The position numbers and the translations under genes are program-made. Under the pieces are notes generated by a model. It saw only the letters and a program-made list of their open reading frames with translations. It was not told the DNA's origin and ran no database searches. Positions 54,324 to 64,000 of a stretch of 64,000 bases of DNA are shown one piece after another. The stretch lies in NCBI RefSeq assembly GCF_000062885.1, contig NC_009142.1:4701584-4765583 (forward strand). Direction: 5' to 3'. Numbering within the stretch: position 1 is the first letter of the stretch; the number at the start of each line of letters is the position of its first letter. The DNA is from Saccharopolyspora erythraea NRRL 2338. Lineage in GTDB: Bacteria > Actinomycetota > Actinomycetes > Mycobacteriales > Pseudonocardiaceae.

Positions 54324-55031
54324 TCACCCGGAAAGCGCGCTCTGCTCCGCGAAGCGCAGGACCTCGGCGCGCACCACCGACAGGACTTCCGGGTTGGCCT
54401 CGGCGAGGTAGAAGTGCCCGCCCGGGAAGCGGTGGCTGCGGAACGCACCGGTGGTCGACCGCTCCCACGCCGCGAGCTCGTCGCGGTCGACCTCGTGGTC
54501 GTCCTCCCCCGCCATGGCCACCACCGGGCAGTGCAGCCGCCGGCCCGCGGGCGCGGTGAAGCTCTCGCTGAGCGTGAAATCGGCGCGCAGCGTGGGAAGC
54601 AGCAACTCGACCAGCTCGGGGTTGTCCAGGACCTCCCGCGGGGTACCGCCGAGCCTGCCCAGCTCGGCGAGGAACAGCTCGTCGGGGAGTTCCGACAGCC
54701 GCCTGCGCCGGGTGGGCAGGTGCGGTCCGCGACGCGCTGACGCGACGACGCCCAGCGGGCCGGTCCGGCGCGCGACCTCCCACGCCAGGCCGGCGCCCAT
54801 GCTGTGGCCGAAGCAGGCGTGCGGGCGGTCCAGCGACGGCGCGAGCTCGCGGGTGACCTGCTCGGCCAGCGCCTCCATTCTGGTGTGCGCGGGCTCGCCG
54901 ATGCGCGCCTCGCGGCCGGGAAGCGGTACCGGGACCACCTCGATCTCCGGGCCAAGCGCCCCCACCCACGGCCGGAAGGCGGCCATGCCGCCGCCGGCGT
55001 GCGGGAAGCAGAACAGCCGGATGGGTTGCAC
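54324..55031 (-). CDS. type II thioesterase
   Basis: A 235-residue alpha/beta hydrolase. GTG 55031 is chosen, with GAGGA eight bases upstream. The start IRLFCFPHAGGGMAAFRPW, the nucleophile elbow FGHSMGAGLAWE, GEDDHEV with the acidic residue and GGHFYL with the histidine are those of editing thioesterases of NRPS/PKS clusters. It would free carrier proteins that were loaded with the wrong group. It lies at the left of the NRPS cluster, followed rightward by the exporter genes on the same strand. Confidence 0.92.
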   Translation of the reverse strand: MQPIRLFCFPHAGGGMAAFRPWVGALGPEIEVVPVPLPGREARIGEPAHTRMEALAEQVTRELAPSLDRPHACFGHSMGAGLAWEVARRTGPLGVVASARRGPHLPTRRRRLSELPDELFLAELGRLGGTPREVLDNPELVELLLPTLRADFTLSESFTAPAGRRLHCPVVAMAGEDDHEVDRDELAAWERSTTGAFRSHRFPGGHFYLAEANPEVLSVVRAEVLRFAEQSALSG

Positions 55032-55100
55032 CTGCTCGTCCTCTCGAGTCCGCTCGTCACAGCCGACGAGCACGTTTGCTGGTTCAGGCGCCGGCGCCGC

Positions 55101-56219
55101 CTACGCGTAGCGCCGGTACTTCCACACCGACAGCGGCACGAACACCAGCAGCATGCCGCCGATCCACAGGAACGCACCCAGCGCCGACGGCGCCACCGGG
55201 CCGCCGAGGAACAGGTTCCGGCAGGTGTCGGTGACCAGCGTCGTCGGGTTGACCTGCGCGAACGCCCGAAGCCAGCCGGGCATGGTGTCCAGCGGCACGA
55301 ACATCGAGCTGCCGAACTGCAGCGGGATCGTCCAGATGAACCCGATCGACTGCACCGTCTCCGGGCTCTTGAGGGCCAGGCCGATGAAGGCCGAGATCCA
55401 GCACAGCGCGAAGCCGTAGGCCAGCAGCACCCCGAACGCGGCCAGCGCCGACAGCGGGTCGGTCTGCACGCGGAACCCGATGACCAGCGCGAAGACGAAC
55501 ATCACCAGCTGCCCGAGCAGCACCCGGCACATGTCGGCCGAGATCCGGGCCGACAGCACCGCCGAGCGCGCGATCGGCAGCGCCCGCAACCGGTCCATCA
55601 CGCCCTTGCTCGCGTCGACGTTGAGCGTGACGCCGGTCAGGCGGGAGGCGAACGACACCGTCTGCACCATGATCCCGGGCAGCAGGTACTGCTTGTAGTC
55701 GCTCTGGTCGCCGTTGGCGATCGCCCCGCCGAAGACGTAGACGAAGATCAGCGTGAAGATCATCGGCATCAGCGTGGCGTCGAGGATCGCTCCCCGGTCG
55801 TTGACCACCTGCAGCAGGTTGCGGCGGGCGATGGCGCCGGTGTGGCGCAGCGTCGCGCGTGGTCCGACGCGGCCGGAGACCTCCCGCATTCGCGACGGCT
55901 TCGACGGCGGTCCCTCGCGGCGCGGCGACTTCGGCGGGTTCTCGCCACGCTGCGGCGGTTCGTCGCGGCGCGGCGTCCGCTGCGGAGCCGCCGCGGGCGG
56001 CGGCCCGGACCTCGCGGGCGGGGGCGGCTGCGGCGCGGGCCGGGCGTGCGGGGCCGGGGCCGATCGCGCCGGCGGCTGCGGCGGCGGACCGCCCGGCCGC
56101 TGCGGAGCGGCCGGGCCGCGCCCCGGCGGGCGCTGGCCCGGTGGCGGCACGGCGCGCTGCCCCGGCGCCTGCGGGCCGGGCGTGCGGCGCGGCATCTGGC
56201 CTCCGGTGGGAGCGGCCAT
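55101..56219 (-). CDS. ABC-2 type permease (DrrB-like) with proline-rich N-terminal extension
   Basis: A 372-residue permease. The last 260 residues are a standard DrrB/ABC-2 membrane domain with six spans, including LLPGIMVQTVSFASRLTGV and SIGFIWTIPLQFGSSMFVP. The first 110 residues are an unusual low-complexity Pro/Arg/Gln-rich tail (repeats of PPPQPPA and RPAPQPPPPA types) without precedent in the core family. ATG 56219 overlaps the ATPase stop by one base. With the 56219-57199 ATPase it should export the cluster product or confer self-resistance. Confidence 0.88.
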   Translation of the reverse strand: MAAPTGGQMPRRTPGPQAPGQRAVPPPGQRPPGRGPAAPQRPGGPPPQPPARSAPAPHARPAPQPPPPARSGPPPAAAPQRTPRRDEPPQRGENPPKSPRREGPPSKPSRMREVSGRVGPRATLRHTGAIARRNLLQVVNDRGAILDATLMPMIFTLIFVYVFGGAIANGDQSDYKQYLLPGIMVQTVSFASRLTGVTLNVDASKGVMDRLRALPIARSAVLSARISADMCRVLLGQLVMFVFALVIGFRVQTDPLSALAAFGVLLAYGFALCWISAFIGLALKSPETVQSIGFIWTIPLQFGSSMFVPLDTMPGWLRAFAQVNPTTLVTDTCRNLFLGGPVAPSALGAFLWIGGMLLVFVPLSVWKYRRYA

Positions 56220-57199
56220 CAGAACACCCTCCGCAGCACGACCGTGGCGTCCGGGTCGGCCGGGCGGTGCGGCTTGTCGGTGAGGGTCAGGAACACCTCG
56301 TCCAGGCTCGGCAGGTGGGTGTCGACCCCGGAGATGGGCAGCCGGGACGCGGCGAGCATGTGGATCACCTCGGTGAGCTCGGACTCGTTGACGATCGGCA
56401 CCGACACCAGCGAGTTCTCGGCGTCCACCCGGAAGTTGCGGGCGCGCATGGCGGTGAGCCTGCGCGCGAGCTGGTCCAAGTGCTCCTGGCCTGCCGTGCG
56501 CACGCGCAGGACCTGTCCGCCGACGCGGGCCCGCAGTTCGCTGCTGGTGCCGGAGGCGATCACGCGGCCCTGGTCCATCACGACCACCGAGTCCGCCAGC
56601 GCTTCGGCCTCCTCCATGTACTGCGTGGTCAGCAGCACCGTGGTCCCTTCGTCCACCAAGGCGCGCACGGAGTCCCAGAGGTTGTTGCGGCTGCGCGGGT
56701 CCAGGCCGGTGGTGGGTTCGTCGAGGTAGAGCACGGCGGGGTCGCCGACCATGCTGGCGGCCAGGTCCAGCCGCCGGCGCATGCCGCCGGAGTACTTGCC
56801 TGCGGGCCGCGACGCGGCCTCGACCAGGTCGAACTGCTCCAGCAGTTCGTCGACCCGCGCCCAGGCGCGCTTGCGCGGCAGGTCGAGCAGCCGGGCGATC
56901 ATGTAGAGGTTCTCCCGGCCCGATATGCCCTCGTCGACCGAGGCGTACTGGCCGGTCAGCCCGATGAGCCTGCGCACCTGGTTGGCCTGCTTGACCAGGT
57001 CGTATCGGCCGATGCGGGCCCGACCGCCGTCGGGCCGGATCAGGGTCGACAGCATCCGCACGGTGGTGGTCTTGCCCGCGCCGTTGGGCCCGAGCAGGCC
57101 GAGCACGGTGCCCTCCGGGATCGTCAGGTCGACCCCGTCGACCACCCGGCGTTCACCGAAGCGCTTGACCAGTCCCTCGACCTGGACGGCAGCCGTCAT
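56219..57199 (-). CDS. ABC-2 type transporter ATP-binding protein (DrrA-like)
   Basis: An ATPase of about 326 residues, ATG 57199 (MTAAVQVEG); a longer version from 57280 is possible as no ribosome site is clear. It shows Walker A GPNGAGKTTTVRM, signature YSGGMRRRLDLAAS, Walker B VLYLDEPTTGLDPRSR, the H-loop region LLTTQYMEEAEALAD and the C-terminal DUF4162 domain of DrrA-type drug exporters. It energises the proline-rich permease that follows immediately (TGATG overlap). It is divergent from the NRPS operon across about 220 bases. Confidence 0.92.
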   Translation of the reverse strand: MTAAVQVEGLVKRFGERRVVDGVDLTIPEGTVLGLLGPNGAGKTTTVRMLSTLIRPDGGRARIGRYDLVKQANQVRRLIGLTGQYASVDEGISGRENLYMIARLLDLPRKRAWARVDELLEQFDLVEAASRPAGKYSGGMRRRLDLAASMVGDPAVLYLDEPTTGLDPRSRNNLWDSVRALVDEGTTVLLTTQYMEEAEALADSVVVMDQGRVIASGTSSELRARVGGQVLRVRTAGQEHLDQLARRLTAMRARNFRVDAENSLVSVPIVNESELTEVIHMLAASRLPISGVDTHLPSLDEVFLTLTDKPHRPADPDATVVLRRVF

Positions 57200-57420
57200 G
57201 ACGCGGGGTCCCGCGACGGGCGGCGCGTTGCGGTCCACATGAGACTGACCCTTCGTCGGCGTACCTCTGCTCACTCGCACCGCACGCTAGACCCCGGGCT
57301 TATCGGGCCAATATCGGAAAAGGAATCGATATCGCCGCAAAAGCAGGCTTGCCTAAGTTCGCTGCCCGGGTCGCCGTGTGCGAACGGCGAGGAGTCGAGG
57401 AGAACCGGAGGATGGTGCAC
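57200..57420. promoter_or_regulatory. divergent promoter region of the NRPS cluster, possible iron box
   Basis: This 221-bp region separates the exporter ATPase and the first oxygenase gene. It is A/T-rich around 57300-57360. AGGCTTGCCTAA at 57345-57356 (reverse TTAGGCAAGCCT) resembles a half to two-thirds of the actinobacterial iron-dependent repressor (IdeR/DmdR) box. The match is partial and made by eye. A good GGAGG lies before ATG 57421. Confidence 0.35.
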
Positions 57421-58404
57421 ATGTCGGTGGCAGTCCGCACCGAGTTGCCCGCGCAGACGGCGGTGGTGGAGCCGTCCGCGGCACAGGAGATCGAACGGGT
57501 GGCGCTGGGCCTGCTGCCCGTCGCGCAGGGCAGGATCGACGACCAGGGCTGGGTGTCGGCGGCGCGCGAGGCGTGGGAGGAGCTGCCCGCATCGGTGCGC
57601 ACGGCGATCCGGCGGTTCCGCCGGGATTCCGGCACCACGGGTGCGCTCGTGGTCAGCGGCCTCCCGCTGGGGCCCGGCGAGGTGCCCGACACCCCGACGG
57701 CCGACGGTTCCGTGCAGCGAACCGCCACCGTCTCCGCGGCGGTGCTGATGATGTTCGCCTGCGGGCTCGGCGATCCCGCCTCGTTCCGGCCCGAGAAGTC
57801 CGGCGCGCTGGTGCAGGACGTGGTCCCGGTGCCGGGCAAGGAGGAGTTCCAGGGCAACGCCGGCTCGGTGCTGCTGTCGTTCCACGTCGAGAACGCCTTC
57901 CACCCGCACCGCCCCGACTTCGTGATGCTCTCGTGCCTGCGGGCCGACCACGAGGCCGTCGCCGGGCTGCGCACCGCGTGCATCCGGCAGGTAGACCACC
58001 TGCTCAGCGACGCCGCGCGGGAGGCGCTGTTCCGCGCCGACTACGTCACCGAGCCACCGCCGTCGTTCGGCTCGGCCGACAGTGACCCGACCCCGCACGC
58101 CGTGCTCAGCGGCGCGGAGGACGACCCGGATCTGAAGGTGGACTTCGCAGCGACCAGGCCGCTCACCCCGCGGGCGCGCGAGGCGATGGACGAGCTGCAG
58201 AAGCTGTTCGCCGACAACGCCCACACCCACTACCTGACCCCGGGTTCTCTGGCCATTGTGGACAACAGGGTCACCGTGCACGGCCGGACCGCCTTCGAGC
58301 CCCGCTACGACGGCAGGGACCGCTGGTTGCAGCGCAGCTTCGCGCTGGCCGACTTCCGCGCGTCCCGCGAGCACCGCACCGCCGACGGCTACGTGCTCGA
58401 CTAG
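57421..58404 (+). CDS. Fe(II)/2-oxoglutarate oxygenase, VioC/AsnO (clavaminate synthase-like) family
   Basis: A 327-residue oxygenase, ATG 57421 with GGAGG nine bases upstream (ATG 57412 is possible). The facial triad is visible: H155-x-E157 in LSFHVENAFHP and the distal H287 in TVHGRTAF. The 2-oxoglutarate-binding arginine is R301 or R305 in GRDRWLQRSF. The HxE motif rather than HxD, and the phrase HPHRPDFVMLSCLR, are typical of enzymes that beta-hydroxylate free arginine, ornithine or asparagine (VioC, OrfP, AsnO). It probably supplies a 3-hydroxylated amino acid for the NRPS encoded next. Confidence 0.9.
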   Translation: MSVAVRTELPAQTAVVEPSAAQEIERVALGLLPVAQGRIDDQGWVSAAREAWEELPASVRTAIRRFRRDSGTTGALVVSGLPLGPGEVPDTPTADGSVQRTATVSAAVLMMFACGLGDPASFRPEKSGALVQDVVPVPGKEEFQGNAGSVLLSFHVENAFHPHRPDFVMLSCLRADHEAVAGLRTACIRQVDHLLSDAAREALFRADYVTEPPPSFGSADSDPTPHAVLSGAEDDPDLKVDFAATRPLTPRAREAMDELQKLFADNAHTHYLTPGSLAIVDNRVTVHGRTAFEPRYDGRDRWLQRSFALADFRASREHRTADGYVLD

Positions 58405-58490
58405 AGCGTGTTCCAGAGGTGGCTTGCGCAGTGGGTCGCCTGGCGCAACCCCGGCCGCCTGTGAAGCAGAACCCAGTCGGGTCCGGCGGC
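58405..58490. repeat. diverged dispersed repeat (copy 4) inside the cluster
   Basis: The block after the oxygenase stop (GAGGTGGCTTGCGCAGTGGG and then CCTGTGAAGCAGAACCCAG) resembles the repeat at 1311-1510: there GCGTAGCTGGG, GGTGGCGGAACC and finally GCTTGTGAGGCAGAACCT. The end GTGAAGCAGAACC differs from GTGAGGCAGAACC by one base. It lies in a 198-bp gap that splits the oxygenase gene from the NRPS gene. Confidence 0.5.
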
Positions 58491-58602
58491 ACCCGGCACG
58501 CCGGACCACCGGCCGGATCGGCGAAAAAGTTCCGATAACGAGGCAAAAGGCGACGCGCATAGCGTTGGGCGCGGCCAGCCACTACTGGAGGGAGAGCCTC
58601 GG

Positions 58603-61600
58603 TTGAACCAGTCAACCGCCGGAGGGCGCGGATTCTGGGCGGAAGTGCTGGAGAGCGCCGCCTTCACGCCGATCCCCCGCTGGTACGAACCCACCGTCGG
58701 ACCGGATCCCCGGACCGAGGTGCACGAGCGCACGCTGCCCGACGCCACGGTCGAGGCGCTTCGCGCCGCTTCCGACGCGCTCGGCGTACGTCCCGGCACC
58801 GTGCTGCTGGCCGCTCACGTCAAGGTGCTCGCCGAGGTCACCGGCGAACGGCACGTGGTGACCGGCTACTGGACCGGGGAGGGCGACCCGATGCCGTGCT
58901 CCCTCGCGCTGCCGGACGGTTCGTGGCGCGAGGTCGTCGAGCACGTCGGCCGCGCCGAGACCGCCCTCCGCGAGCACCTGCCCGGCTCGCTTTCCGAGCT
59001 GGGCCACACCGGGCCGCTCTTCGACACCGTCTTCGACCTCGCGGGCTCGGCCGCCGGAACCGACCACGCCGCGTTGCACGTCAGCTGCACCGGCGACGCG
59101 CTGCGGTTGAGCTATCGCGTCGAACTGCTGAGCCCTGAGCAGGTGGACCGCCTCGGCGGGTACTACCTCGCCGCGCTGCGGCTGATCGGCTCGGACCTCG
59201 ACGCCGCGCACACCGACGGGTCGCTGCTGTCGGACGCGGAGGTCGAGTTCCAGCTCACGGGACTGGCGGGCCCGGAACGCGCGCTCCCGGACCTGCGCGT
59301 GCACGAACTGTTCGAGCAACGCGTGGACCGGCACCCGGACGCCGTCGCGGCGGTCCACCAGGGCCAGGAGTGGACGTACCGCCGGCTCGACGAGCGCGCC
59401 AACCAGATCGCCAACGCCCTGCTGGGCCGCGGACTGCGGCGCGAGGACGTCGTCGCCGTGGTCACCGACCGCAACCTGGACTGGATGGCCTCGGTGCTGG
59501 GCGTGTTCAAGGCCGGCGGCTGCTACCTGCCGGTGGAGCCCGACTTCCCGGCCGACCGGATCGCCAGGACGCTGAGACGCAGCGAGTGCCGGTTCGCGCT
59601 GGCCGAGAGCGGCCGCACCGCCAACCTCGACCAGGCCGGGGCGGAGGCCGAAGTGCTGCCGCTGCGCGACATCGACGGCGACACCACCAGGCCCGGGGTG
59701 CCGGTCGACGCGGACCAGCTCGCCTACGTGTACTTCACCTCCGGCTCCACCGGCGAGCCCAAGGGCGCGATGTGCGAGCACGCCGGGATGACCAACCACC
59801 TCTACGCCAAGATCGACGACCTCGGCATCGGCGAGGGCGCGGTGGTCAGCGAGACCGCTCCGCAGTGCTTCGACATCTCGCTGTGGCAGCTCGTGAGCGC
59901 GTTGCTGGTCGGCGGGCGGACGCTGATCGTCGAACAGGACGTGATACTCGACGTGCAGCGGTTCGTCGACACCATCGCCGAGCACGGCGTGCAGATCGCG
60001 CAGCTCGTGCCCTCCTACCTGGAGACCGTGCTGTCCTGTCTGGAGGACGCGCCGCGCCCGCTGCCCGCTCTCCAGTGCGTGTCGGTCACCGGCGAGGCGC
60101 TGAAGAAGGAGCTGACCCAGCGCTGGTTCGCGACCTATCCCGAGGTGAGGTTGGCCAACGCCTACGGGCTCACCGAGACCTCCGACGACACCAACCACGA
60201 GGTCATGTCCGAGGTCCCGGTCCGCGAGCGGGTGCCGCTGGGGCCGGCGGTGAACAACACCCGCGTCTACATCGTCGACGAGCGGCTGCGGCCGGTGCCG
60301 CTGGGCGCTCCCGGTGAGATCGTCTTCTCCGGCGTGTGCGTGGGCCGCGGCTACATCAACGACGAGGAACGCACCCGGGCGGCGTTCCTCCCCGATCCGC
60401 ACCGTCCGGGGCAGCGGCTCTACCGCTCCGGCGACTTCGGCCGGTGGCTGCCGGAGGGCAAGGTCGAGTTCCTCGGCAGGCGCGACGCGCAGGTCAAGAT
60501 CCGCGGGTTCCGCATCGAGATCGGGGAGATCGAGAACCAGCTGCTGCGCGCTCCCGGCGTACGCGACGGCGCGGTGGTGGTGACCGAGGACGCCGGCGGC
60601 AACAAGCACCTGGTCGCCTTCCACACTGGCCAGGAGGACATCGCCGCCGACGAGTTCAAGGGCTTCCTGCGGCGAAGCCTGCCGCACTACATGGTTCCCG
60701 AGCACTTCCACCACTGCGAGGCGCTGCCGCTGACGGGCAACGGCAAGACCGACAAGAAGGCGCTCTCCGCGCTCGCGGCCGAACGCGCGGCCGCCGCGGG
60801 CGAGCACCAGCCGCCGCGAACGCCCACCGAACGCATGCTGGCCGGGAAGTGGGCCGAGGTGCTGGGCGTGCCGGTGTCCGAGATCGGCCGCGACGACCAC
60901 TTCTTCGATCGCGGCGGCACCTCGCTGTCGGCGGTGCGGCTGATCATCAAGCTCGACCGGCAGGTCTCACTCAAGGATGTCAACGGCCGCCCCGTGCTCG
61001 CCGACCTGGCAGCGGTCATCGACGGCAGGACCGGTGCCGGCGGCGGAATCCTGCAACGCCTGTCCACAGGGGACGGATCCGGCCACGGGCTGGTCGTGTT
61101 CCCCTACGCCGGCGGCGGGCCGGTCAACTTCCACTCCTTCGCCCAGGCGTTGCAGTCGCGCGGCATCGCGGTGCACGCGGTGGAACTGCCCGGCCACGAC
61201 CTCGGCGCCGACGCGGGATCGTTCGCGGAGCTGGAGCAGATCGTCAAGGAGGTCGTCGCCGAGATCGGCGGGCTGGGCCTGCGCACGGTCTCGCTGTGGG
61301 GCCACTCCGCGGGTGCCGCCTTCGCCGCGTACGCGGCCCGGCTCCTGGAGGAGCAGGGCACTGCGGTGCACCAGGTGATCGTCGCCGCGCGCGCGATGGA
61401 CACCGTCGAGGAGTTGCAGGCCGACATCGCCGAGGCCGGCTCGCTTTCCCTGGAGCGGATCAAGCAGCGGCTCAGCGCGCAGGAGGCGTTCCGCGAGCTC
61501 GCCCAGCTGCGCACCGAGCACGCCGACAACGTCGCGCAGGCGTACCGGCACGACGTGCGCAGCGCGGCGCAGTACCTCGTCGACGTCCAGGTCAACCCGC

Positions 61601-61812
61601 CGCAGCCACGGCTTTCGGCGCCGCTCACCGTCGTCTTCGCCGAAGGCGACCCCGGCAAGGCCGAGGGTCTGGCGCGGCACCACCGGTGGGAGGCCGTGGC
61701 CCGGCACGTCGACCACCGGCAGATCTCCGGTGGCGGCCACTACTTCCTGGCCACCCACGCCGCCGAGGCGGCGGCCGTCGTCCGCGGCGCCGCCGAGTCC
61801 CCGACCGCCTGA
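58603..61812 (+). CDS. single-module nonribosomal peptide synthetase (half-C, A, PCP, TE)
   Basis: A 1,069-residue synthetase from TTG/ATG-like start 58603 behind GGAGGGAG. Residues 1-215 match only the C-terminal half of a condensation domain (LFDTVFDLAG, then LSPEQVDRLGGYY); the catalytic HHxxxDG half is absent. The adenylation domain follows (about 225-745) with YFTSGSTGEPKGA, FDISLW (D424), AYGLTE and GNGKTDKKAL. Read by eye, its specificity code is D-I-W-Q-S-T-A-D-D. The PCP carries GGTSLSA with phosphopantetheine serine S774. A C-terminal thioesterase has GHSAGAA (S902) and GGGHYF (H1046). The two acidic code residues suggest a basic or amine-bearing substrate. The TTG at 58603 is read as the initiator. 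Confidence 0.9.
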   Translation: MNQSTAGGRGFWAEVLESAAFTPIPRWYEPTVGPDPRTEVHERTLPDATVEALRAASDALGVRPGTVLLAAHVKVLAEVTGERHVVTGYWTGEGDPMPCSLALPDGSWREVVEHVGRAETALREHLPGSLSELGHTGPLFDTVFDLAGSAAGTDHAALHVSCTGDALRLSYRVELLSPEQVDRLGGYYLAALRLIGSDLDAAHTDGSLLSDAEVEFQLTGLAGPERALPDLRVHELFEQRVDRHPDAVAAVHQGQEWTYRRLDERANQIANALLGRGLRREDVVAVVTDRNLDWMASVLGVFKAGGCYLPVEPDFPADRIARTLRRSECRFALAESGRTANLDQAGAEAEVLPLRDIDGDTTRPGVPVDADQLAYVYFTSGSTGEPKGAMCEHAGMTNHLYAKIDDLGIGEGAVVSETAPQCFDISLWQLVSALLVGGRTLIVEQDVILDVQRFVDTIAEHGVQIAQLVPSYLETVLSCLEDAPRPLPALQCVSVTGEALKKELTQRWFATYPEVRLANAYGLTETSDDTNHEVMSEVPVRERVPLGPAVNNTRVYIVDERLRPVPLGAPGEIVFSGVCVGRGYINDEERTRAAFLPDPHRPGQRLYRSGDFGRWLPEGKVEFLGRRDAQVKIRGFRIEIGEIENQLLRAPGVRDGAVVVTEDAGGNKHLVAFHTGQEDIAADEFKGFLRRSLPHYMVPEHFHHCEALPLTGNGKTDKKALSALAAERAAAAGEHQPPRTPTERMLAGKWAEVLGVPVSEIGRDDHFFDRGGTSLSAVRLIIKLDRQVSLKDVNGRPVLADLAAVIDGRTGAGGGILQRLSTGDGSGHGLVVFPYAGGGPVNFHSFAQALQSRGIAVHAVELPGHDLGADAGSFAELEQIVKEVVAEIGGLGLRTVSLWGHSAGAAFAAYAARLLEEQGTAVHQVIVAARAMDTVEELQADIAEAGSLSLERIKQRLSAQEAFRELAQLRTEHADNVAQAYRHDVRSAAQYLVDVQVNPPQPRLSAPLTVVFAEGDPGKAEGLARHHRWEAVARHVDHRQISGGGHYFLATHAAEAAAVVRGAAESPTA

Positions 61813-61832
61813 AGAACCGAAAGGTACGACCG

Positions 61833-62825
61833 ATGGCTTCACCAGCCGCTGACCTCGACCTCGCCCTCACCGCGGGCAAGCCGGCGATCCTGCACGCCGG
61901 CGACGTCGCGGAGGCCGCGCCGTGGGCCGACGCGCACCGCGCCGAGCTGCGTTCGCTGGTCGACGAGCACGGCGCCGTCCTCGTGCGGGGCCTGTCGCTG
62001 AGCACCGCCGAGGAGTTCGGCCGCATCAGCGGGGACCTCGCCGGACCGCTGATGCGCGAACGGGAGGCGTTCGCCCGCCGCTGGACCTACGCCGACGGCG
62101 TCTACTCCTCCTCGAAGTGGCCGCCGAACCAGCCGATGTGCATGCACCACGAGCTCAGCTACACGCTGGAGTTCCCCGGCCTGATGATGTTCGCCTGCCT
62201 GGGCGCCCCGGCATCCGGTGGCGTGACCGGCGTGGCCGACGCGAGCGCGGTGCTGCGGGCGCTGCCCGCCGACCTCGTCGAGCGGTTCGAGCGGGAGGGC
62301 TGGCAGCTTGCGCGCAACTACAACGAGATGGTCGGCGTGCCGTGGCAGGAGGCGTTCGGCACCGAGGACCGCTCCGTGGTCGAGCGCTACTGCCGGGAGA
62401 ACTCCATCGAGTTCGAGTGGGACGACATGGACGGGCTGCGGACCAGGCAGCGCCGGTCGGCGGTCATCCGCCACCCCAGGACCGGCGAGCGGGTCTGGTT
62501 CAACCAGATCGCTTTCCTCAACGAGTGGACCATCGACCCGGAGGTCCGCGACTACCTCGTCATGGAGTTCGGCCCCGGCGGACTGCCGTTCAACAGCCAC
62601 TACGGCAGCGGAGAGCCGATCGGCGACGACGTGATCGCGCTGCTCAACGAGGTCTACGAAAGGCACACGCTGCGCGAGCCGTGGCAGGCGGGCGACCTGA
62701 TGCTGGTCGACAACATCGCCCGGGCGCACAGCCGCGAGCCCTACGAGGGCTCCCGCGAGGTGCTGGTGGCGATGGGCGACCCGGTGCGCCTGGCCGAGTG
62801 CTCGCCGACCATCGCACTTCCCTGA
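61833..62825 (+). CDS. Fe(II)/2-oxoglutarate oxygenase, TauD/SyrP-like
   Basis: A 330-residue oxygenase, ATG 61833, 20 bases after the NRPS stop. The metal site is H105-x-E107 in MCMHHELSYTLEFP with distal H299 in IARAHSREPYEGSREVL, whose final arginine can bind 2-oxoglutarate. The phrase SSKWPPNQPMCMHHELSYT parallels SyrP of syringomycin biosynthesis, which beta-hydroxylates a carrier-bound aspartate. Its place directly after the NRPS favours a role on the tethered or released amino acid. It is unrelated in detail to the VioC-like enzyme at 57421, so the cluster has two distinct hydroxylation steps. Confidence 0.88.
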   Translation: MASPAADLDLALTAGKPAILHAGDVAEAAPWADAHRAELRSLVDEHGAVLVRGLSLSTAEEFGRISGDLAGPLMREREAFARRWTYADGVYSSSKWPPNQPMCMHHELSYTLEFPGLMMFACLGAPASGGVTGVADASAVLRALPADLVERFEREGWQLARNYNEMVGVPWQEAFGTEDRSVVERYCRENSIEFEWDDMDGLRTRQRRSAVIRHPRTGERVWFNQIAFLNEWTIDPEVRDYLVMEFGPGGLPFNSHYGSGEPIGDDVIALLNEVYERHTLREPWQAGDLMLVDNIARAHSREPYEGSREVLVAMGDPVRLAECSPTIALP

Positions 62826-62856
62826 CCGCCCGAACCACCGACCCCGGAGTAGAAGC

Positions 62857-63882
62857 ATGTCCGCAGTCCCCTCGTTCACGGTGATATCCGGTGCCGAGGT
62901 CCAGAATTCGCTCGACGGCCGCCAGAAGCAGGTCGTCGACATCGTGGAGGCGGCCTACCGGCTGCACGGCGAGGAGCGGACGGTGAACCCGCCGTCGTAC
63001 TTCCTGCGCTTCCCCGAACGCCCCACCTCCCGCATCATCGCGCTGCCCGCCTCACTCGGCGGGGACTCCGCGGTGGACGGCATCAAGTGGATCTCCAGCT
63101 TCCCCGGCAACGTCGCCGCCGGGATCCCCCGCGCCTCGGCGGTGCTGGTCCTCAACGACCACGACACCGGATACCCCTTCGCGTGCCTGGAGAGCTCGGT
63201 CATCAGCGCCACCCGCACGGCCGCCTCGGCCGCGCTGGCCGCCGACCGCCTCACCCGCGACCGCGGCCGCCCCCGCCGGGTGGGCTTCTTCGGCGTCGGC
63301 CTGATCGCCCGGTACCTGCACGACTACCTGCAGGCCACCGGCTGGAGCTTCGACGAGATCGGCGTCCACGACCTCTCCGCCGAGCACGCCGACGGGTTCC
63401 GCGGCTACCTGGAGCGGGCCGAGTCCGGGCCGCGGATCACCGTGCACGACAGCGCCGAGGAGCTCATCCGCTCCAGCGACCTGGTCGTGTTCGCCACCGT
63501 CGCGGGCACCCCGCACGTCCACGACCCGGCGTGGTTCGAGCACAACCCGCTGGTGCTGCACGTGTCGCTGCGCGACCTGTCGCCGGAGATCATCCTCTCG
63601 GCGGTCAACGTCGTCGACGACGTCGAGCACTGCCTCAAGGCCGACACCTCGCCGCACCTGGCCGAACAGCGCACCGGCAACCGCGACTTCCTCGACGGCA
63701 CGATCAACGACGTGCTCTGCGGGCGGCTCTCCGTCCCCGCCGACCGGCCGGTGGTGTTCTCCCCGTTCGGCCTGGGCGTGCTGGACCTGGCCGTGGGCAA
63801 GTTCGTCTACGACGAGGTCACCCGCAACGGCCACCCGACGGTCGTGCCCGACTTCTTCTCCGAGCTCAAGCGCTACGGCTGA
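62857..63882 (+). CDS. SbnB-like (ornithine cyclodeaminase family) dehydrogenase for 2,3-diaminopropionate
   Basis: A 341-residue NAD-dependent enzyme of the ornithine cyclodeaminase/mu-crystallin family, ATG 62857. The Rossmann segment RVGFFGVGLIARYLHDYL lies near residue 140, and NPPSYFLRFP near 45 and ASLGGDSAVDGIKWISSFPG near 65-85 follow the SbnB/VioK subgroup rather than true cyclodeaminases. SbnB oxidises the SbnA product N-(1-amino-1-carboxy-2-ethyl)glutamate to L-2,3-diaminopropionate plus 2-oxoglutarate. The next gene, cut by the window, looks like the SbnA partner. Diaminopropionate is therefore a likely building block. Confidence 0.85.
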   Translation: MSAVPSFTVISGAEVQNSLDGRQKQVVDIVEAAYRLHGEERTVNPPSYFLRFPERPTSRIIALPASLGGDSAVDGIKWISSFPGNVAAGIPRASAVLVLNDHDTGYPFACLESSVISATRTAASAALAADRLTRDRGRPRRVGFFGVGLIARYLHDYLQATGWSFDEIGVHDLSAEHADGFRGYLERAESGPRITVHDSAEELIRSSDLVVFATVAGTPHVHDPAWFEHNPLVLHVSLRDLSPEIILSAVNVVDDVEHCLKADTSPHLAEQRTGNRDFLDGTINDVLCGRLSVPADRPVVFSPFGLGVLDLAVGKFVYDEVTRNGHPTVVPDFFSELKRYG

Positions 63883-63941
63883 GCTCCAGGGGCCTCACCG
63901 CAACACGCTCGGTTCGTTCCCGCCAAGACGGAGATAGCTCG

Positions 63942-64000
63942 GTGCCCATCATTTCGCAGCCGCACGAATTCAACGAGGACGACCTCTACGTCGACCTCCG
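63942..64000 (+). CDS. probable SbnA-like PLP-dependent synthase, N-terminus only
   Basis: Only 19 codons are visible from GTG 63942 (GGAG 11 bases upstream): a start MPIISQPHEFNEDDLYVDL and then the window ends. The PHEFNEDDLYVDL phrase fits what I remember of cysteine-synthase-like enzymes of diaminopropionate pathways (SbnA/VioB type), and its place behind the SbnB-like gene supports this. SbnA joins O-phospho-L-serine and glutamate. The call rests mostly on context. Confidence 0.5.
   Translation, partial: MPIISQPHEFNEDDLYVDL

Follow-up and report, generated by a model that had tools for sequence, protein, structure and literature searches.

A putative diaminopropionate supply and trans-loading arm of an 11-module nonribosomal peptide synthetase cluster in Saccharopolyspora erythraea

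The 64,000-nucleotide stretch of the Saccharopolyspora erythraea NRRL 2338 genome analyzed here (C1:4701584-4765583 of 8.21 Mb; hereafter the window) ends within a run of genes for two 2-oxoglutarate oxygenases, a nonribosomal peptide synthetase (NRPS), and SbnB- and SbnA-like enzymes. Do these genes make a short peptide of their own, or do they serve a larger assembly line? An initial annotation, made from the letters of the window, proposed a small cluster with a short peptide as its product. However, two NRPSs totaling 11 modules adjoin these genes: the NRPS cluster runs about 44 kb past the right end of the window and spans from about 54.3 kb in the window to C1:4809768. On balance, and judging from sequence comparisons, we favor the reading that these genes form the precursor-supply and trans-loading arm of this 11-module cluster, with a predicted L-2,3-diaminopropionate (Dap) loader and an AsnO-type oxygenase; a free-standing protein with adenylation (A), ketoreductase (KR), and thiolation (T) domains is a further predicted supplier.

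The two large NRPSs were divided into domains with profiles built from these NRPSs. With C for condensation, E for epimerization, and TE for thioesterase domains, the protein of 7259 amino acids (aa) reads A-T; C-[91 aa of A end]-T-E; C-T; C-A-T; C-[A remnant]-T; C-[A remnant]-T; C-A-T; C-A-T-E, and the 3337-aa protein reads C-A-T, C-A-T, C-A-T-TE. Module 1 has no C domain. A complete A domain is missing from modules 2, 3, 5, and 6, whose C and T motifs are nevertheless intact, which is the sequence pattern of trans-adenylation; the stretch from C to T measures 109, 24, 151, and 213 aa in these modules, and A1, A4, A7, and A8 alone measure 473-487 aa. The codes of the A domains were read by alignment, with putative amino acids in brackets, as DATQFALID (no reading), DFWNVGMVH (Thr), DILQLGLIW (Gly), and DAWTVAAVC (Phe) in modules 1, 4, 7, and 8, and as DVWHFGLID (Ser), DLTKVGEVG (Asn), and DVAHVGAVE (perhaps a basic residue) in modules 9, 10, and 11. 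With E domains in modules 2 and 8, the residues added there would be of the D configuration.

Eight other genomes carry related clusters: one of the same genus (G012), four of the same family (G128, G207, G144, and G268), Kutzneria viridogrisea (G297, locus L021), an Allokutzneria (G298, locus L071), and a member of the same class in another family, f5 (G491). The last came from a sample of 396 genomes, two of which, the window genome (G000) included, matched the 1260-aa A-KR-T protein at E <= 1e-200. The cluster type is thus present in at least two actinomycete families, the Pseudonocardiaceae (its own genome and seven others) and the family of G491, and the nine clusters are a lower bound, the less similar loaders (55 of 297 family-sample genomes matched) not being sorted by cluster type. 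Modules 2, 3, 5, and 6 are all without a complete A domain in seven of the eight other genomes; modules 3, 5, and 6 are also A-less in G268, whose fetched stretch begins in the E domain of module 2. Because the same gaps recur in eight other genomes (with module 2 unseen in one), they are not an assembly error. Wherever seen, the C domains of the A-less modules keep HHxxxDG and the T domains keep their serine, and both are about as conserved as in normal modules. Module 6 has a degenerate A remnant of 372 aa in G298 and 398 aa in G491, and G297 keeps 303 aa in module 6 and, in module 5, a C-to-T stretch of about 336 aa. Conservation is lower in the remnants than in the complete A domains of the protein they belong to (39-42% versus 63-68% between G000 and G297). 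The remnants show the loss of A domains while C and T persist.

What, then, could charge these modules? The part of the cluster that lies in the window consists of the following genes and domains.

54324..55073, minus strand: type II thioesterase at the cluster's left edge (Pfam PF00975, 147 bits)
55101..56219, minus strand: ABC-2 exporter permease (PF01061; relatives in 8/8 other clusters)
56219..57280, minus strand: ABC exporter ATPase, DrrA-like (PF00005, PF13732; relatives in 8/8 other clusters)
57421..58404 (open reading frame opens at 57349), plus strand: AsnO-type 2-oxoglutarate oxygenase (TauD/clavaminate-synthase superfamily; AsnO structure 2og5, 390 bits)
58603-61812, plus strand: window NRPS (the loader), whole gene, A-T-TE
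58603..59310, plus strand: HHxxxDG-free N-terminal region of the loader, probably the degenerate C-terminal half of a condensation domain
59311..60759, plus strand: adenylation domain of the loader, code DIWQSTADDK (PF00501, 267 bits)
60835..61020, plus strand: thiolation domain of the loader, GGTSL (PF00550)
61090..61758, plus strand: thioesterase domain of the loader, GHSAG (PF00975, 69 bits; missing in some relatives)
61833..62825, plus strand: SyrP-like 2-oxoglutarate oxygenase, H105-x-E107 ... H299 (Pfam TauD, PF02668, 167 bits)
62857..63882, plus strand: SbnB, diaminopropionate synthesis (TIGR03944)
63942..64000 in the window and on to C1:4766508 (L009:525-1508), plus strand: start of SbnA (TIGR03945)

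The initial annotation had described this co-directional run in the same order, with two different 2-oxoglutarate oxygenases and with an adjoining type II thioesterase and ABC-2 exporter, and all of these are present, the latter two on the minus strand.

The window NRPS had been annotated as a one-module NRPS; its A-T-TE domains follow about 230 residues in which no condensation motif is present, and it is not a complete module. No match to the C profile was found in the loader protein, and several multi-domain structures align to it only from about residue 157. Relatives were collected by a SyrP-pair scan, which gave 480 confirmed stretches, and the counts of loci given here cover the best 80. 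Among 80 loaders (from 70 loci, the window, its paralogue, and eight cluster relatives, with four genomes in twice), 57 match the C profile in its C-terminal part alone, and HHxxxDG is present in none of the 80; by analogy with these relatives, the N-terminus is probably the degenerate C-terminal half of a C domain. Since it has no condensation motif, the loader should not elongate alone. The loader code fits DIWQ[SCA]T[ATVC]DD in 74 of 74 sequences, 62 of which have DIWQSTADD; these come from 70 of the 80 loci, the window, the paralogue, and two plasmid relatives, the other ten loci being without a frame at >=48% identity. From this code and its setting we infer Dap as the substrate; the literature on the A-domain code of the loader yielded nothing relevant.

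The annotated diaminopropionate supply is borne out by the profiles. SbnB scores 440 bits against a curated NCBIfam equivalog cut-off of 327 (TIGR03944), and the gene running beyond position 64000, which had been expected to be SbnA-like and which we read from the genome to the right of the window, scores 387 bits against 350 (TIGR03945). SbnA and SbnB together make L-2,3-diaminopropionate, and here they would supply it to the loader, which would activate Dap, keep it bound to the loader's T domain as a substrate for the SyrP-like oxygenase, and hand it over in trans to modules 2, 3, 5, and 6 or a subset of them.

Trans loading by a Dap loader is supported by an experimental precedent: in capreomycin biosynthesis, CmnA-A1 activates Dap and loads the A-less CmnI in trans (PMC12400406, in the passages drawn on here). 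The capreomycin and viomycin systems share with our proposal a Dap-activating A domain that serves an A-less module in trans, together with an MbtH partner. According to the same passages they have one A-less module, and the A domain also serves its own module in cis, whereas the present cluster, with 11 modules of which four are A-less, has a free-standing loader next to an oxygenase of its own and, in addition, an A-KR-T protein. A tuberactinomycin cluster (a five-module set, one module A-less), which the initial annotation likewise did not see, is ruled out by the 11-module line with its four modules without a complete A domain. No description of such a cluster was present in the titles or abstract openings listed from the open-licence PMC literature; we regard it as a variant of trans-loaded NRPSs for which no description was found, trans loading of Dap itself being known from capreomycin. 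If our reading is true, one loader serving several modules exceeds the single trans-loaded module of capreomycin, and the cluster would offer a natural system in which to study carrier recognition and the sharing of one activating enzyme among modules.

The first of the two oxygenases had been called VioC/AsnO-type. Compared with known structures, it scores 390 bits with AsnO (2og5, along 312 residues), 143 bits with clavaminate synthase, and about 111 bits with VioC; its HxE and later H align with the AsnO triad, and a DPDLxVD block is common to both proteins. D241 of AsnO is said to be the residue that sets Asn over Asp. Because AsnO far outscores VioC, and because the cut-off of the VioC family TIGR03946 is missed (150 bits versus 419), the enzyme is a predicted free-asparagine 3-hydroxylase, for which free Asn is a better reading than a VioC-type basic residue. 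The 3-hydroxylated basic residue proposed for the product gives way to a predicted 3-hydroxyasparagine, in line with the Asn-type code of module 10. An AsnO relative is present in 9/9 clusters, the window's own included, and would make 3-hydroxyasparagine for module 10. AsnO belongs to the biosynthesis of the calcium-dependent antibiotic (CDA). The CDA system is similar in having a relative of this oxygenase (PDB 2og5, 390 bits), with an Asn-type code also found here in module 10, and differs in its NRPS and its other building blocks.

The second oxygenase is of the TauD family, carries HxE...H, and adjoins a carrier-bearing NRPS, as a SyrP-like enzyme should. It matches the TauD-like structure At3g21360 (1y0z) with 98 bits, and H105, E107, and H299 are conserved in its paralogue. 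The loader and the SyrP-like oxygenase form a single open frame in two loci (L015 and L064), which suggests that they work together; the fused frame may also represent a lost stop with an internal start. The oxygenase would act on Dap held by the T domain of the loader. A comparable reaction is that of dapdiamide DdaC/DdaD, in which the substrate of a 2-oxoglutarate oxygenase is a Dap derivative bound to the carrier of an NRPS, as stated in part of a computational paper (PMC12451424); DdaD has 578 aa, its substrate is N-fumaramoyl-Dap, and the two systems are likened by description, not by sequence. A tree of SyrP-like proteins, rooted for display only and with a bootstrap that had not converged, has 91 rows, some genomes being represented twice. 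Apart from one Kitasatospora row and those of the window type, all sequences fall into one set (77 rows, support 100/94). Two label changes are required for the window-type sequences, and one origin and two origins are indistinguishable.

The 1260-aa protein matches the A-KR-T structure 6ulw over residues 53-1258 with 750 bits. This structure is StsA, an initiation module in whose keto-acid A domain the amino-binding Asp is replaced by Ile and a conserved Pro by Met (PMC11253843, as far as the sections drawn on go). The 1260-aa protein, a nearly full-length match, likewise has the A-KR-T order, Met at the Pro place (FGMSE), and no Asp at the amino-binding place, where Gly is aligned. The difference is that StsA initiates, and here the large NRPS begins with its own A-T and no C domain. 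As a free-standing module, the 1260-aa protein would give an alpha-hydroxy acid and may fill one of the A-less modules, and the line as a whole probably makes a hydroxyasparagine-containing depsipeptide.

The same protein is central to an alternative that we consider doubtful, namely, that the four A-less modules are charged otherwise, either by the A-KR-T protein or by cis A domains acting on several T domains, and that the Dap loader serves one position or releases a modified amino acid through its TE. In its favor, all nine clusters contain the A-KR-T protein as a second free-standing enzyme that has no C domain, and module 1 is likewise without the C domain that could take over what this enzyme makes; a cis A domain that serves a second module is known from capreomycin (PMC12400406, same passages). 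However, one A-KR-T enzyme would need to fill four gaps, and the E domain that follows one of them is more in keeping with an amino acid than with a hydroxy acid; release by the TE misfits the relatives of the loader that have no TE.

Where else does the cassette occur, and what does it charge there? Among the best 80 loci (tblastn, partial matches counted), the A-T gene is present in 73, SbnB in 72, SbnA in 70, and a Pls-like T-membrane protein in 71. MbtH and other window-type partners are found in four of the 80 (L015; L016, from Saccharopolyspora hirsuta of the Pseudonocardiaceae; L021; and L071), and the remaining five loci are shorter than 13 kb. Neither these four loci nor the stretches read from the eight related clusters gave a Pls-like match, and 68 of the 71 Pls-like open frames are without an A domain. 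Similarly, the window cluster has no TIGR02353 protein, the mark of Pls/PosA clusters; one that scores 768 bits is encoded in a paralogous locus at C1:3.30 Mb. The poly-diaminopropionate synthetase system of Streptomyces albulus, as described in part of PMC4668381, also feeds an NRPS from a cysteine-synthase-like and ornithine-cyclodeaminase-like Dap supply, and resembles the related cassettes that adjoin Pls-type proteins (71/80); its synthetase contains an A domain of its own, and no Pls protein is encoded in the window cluster. Neither tauD nor dioxygenase occurs as a term in the main text of that paper. As a tentative picture, a portable SbnA/SbnB/A-T/SyrP cassette would charge A-less carriers, mostly of the Pls type and here in four modules whose ancestral A domains decayed after the takeover, some of them perhaps once serine-specific. 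Remnant 6 is longest in G298 and G491, and its best match there is a Ser-type A domain (38-40%), a weak hint; in G297, G000, and G128, the best match of remnant 6 is module 11.

Several side observations concern the cassette. The paralogous one (L012:9758-19266) has SbnA on the minus strand, followed by a Pls-like gene, an A-T-TE gene with the same code, a SyrP-like gene, and SbnB, and its loader is 58% identical to that of the window. About 19 kb from it lies a gene for a 5429-aa NRPS (L013-L014, C1:3328675-3344964), with an MbtH-like gene after it and a gene before it that looks by eye like an amino-acid N-monooxygenase. We take the codes of this NRPS to be of the hydroxyornithine, Ser, and ornithine types, and the locus is perhaps a hydroxamate siderophore cluster. 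On a plasmid of Kitasatospora sp. NBC_00039 (L131, 11956-21363), an A-T loader with the code DIWQATCDD and a TauD gene have neighbors annotated as a kinase, a lyase family protein, and a pyridoxal phosphate-dependent enzyme, with no annotated SbnA or SbnB, and these neighbors possibly represent another diaminopropionate route. Among the proteins reported from Streptomyces scabies in the consulted part of PMC11479980 is an SbnB homologue beside an sbnA homologue and an NRPS gene, which may be one of the common cassettes.

Against trans loading of Dap, a number of points have to be set. The T-domain similarities give no signature common to modules 2, 3, 5, and 6; as guides to module substrates, T- and C-domain similarities were set aside, nothing marking these four modules (C3 and C9 group together, with 47% versus 27-32% with others, as expected after E domains). 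The dN/dS values of the remnants (0.16, 0.35, and 0.35) lie within the range of intact domains (0.16-0.41) and are not decisive. The Dap reading of the loader code is a prediction, and hydroxylation of Dap at C-3 would lead to an unstable carbinolamine. Because plain 3-hydroxy-Dap would be unstable, desaturation, or oxidation after N-carbamoylation, are considered as alternatives for the SyrP-like enzyme. The loader TE is absent in G268, which is among the 25 of 79 T-bearing loaders with fewer than 120 aa after T; since TE-less relatives exist, the TE is not essential and no obligatory transferase, and the idea that it acts as a transferase is weakened. A-domain stretches, incomplete in at least two cases, occur in three of the 71 Pls-like proteins (L018, L030, and L081). 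The E domain in module 8 of G491 shows no HHxxxDG, and module 7 of G298 has a Phe-type code; owing to these differences, the products of the related clusters are probably not identical. The code of module 9 in G297 is DVWHYGGVD.

It is improbable that modules 2, 3, 5, and 6 are dead and skipped, that the product is a heptapeptide, and that the Dap cassette serves another pathway. Their A domains are indeed missing, but the C motif and the T serine are intact wherever seen, the C and T domains are conserved like those of normal modules, and the cassette is found in 9/9 clusters read. Scarcely credible is the small, separate one-module cluster of the initial annotation, with its short product built from Dap and a hydroxylated basic residue: although the cassette and the large NRPSs are convergent in this genome and related cassettes stand beside Pls-like proteins elsewhere (71/80 loci), the loader, SyrP, SbnB, SbnA, and both NRPSs are all co-directional in G297, G298, and G491, and the AsnO match speaks against the basic residue.

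As for the other genes of the cluster, those to the right of SbnA on the opposite strand encode, in order, a class A beta-lactamase, MbtH, the 1260-aa protein, a type II thioesterase, the 3337-aa NRPS, the 7259-aa NRPS, and an amidase; beyond the amidase are a BTAD regulator on the plus strand and then an ornithine-carbamoyltransferase-like gene. Because the latter scores 238 bits, under the family cut-off of 281, and a separate gene at C1:5886259 scores 377 bits, it looks like an extra copy for the peptide pathway. It is present in eight of the nine clusters, the ninth not being reached by the fetched stretch. The type II thioesterase gene at the left edge of the cluster (54324..55073) has relatives 74-80% identical in two Saccharopolyspora loci, L015 and L016.

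The beta-lactamase gene lies between SbnA and MbtH (L009:1590-2378, C1:4766590-4767378). A relative is present only in the same-genus cluster G012 (96.6% identical; blastp), with no blastp match in the fetched stretches of the seven other related clusters and none by tblastn in the 80 loci. The idea of a beta-lactam was dropped, the beta-lactamase not being a conserved part of the cluster. In G268 (L107-L108), about 14 kb separates SbnA from MbtH, the loader is without a TE, and there are two MbtH genes with an A-KR-T gene fragment between them. At L011:18878-20000, the start of a polyketide synthase can be seen by eye behind acyl-ligase-like and carrier-protein-like genes, apparently a separate cluster.

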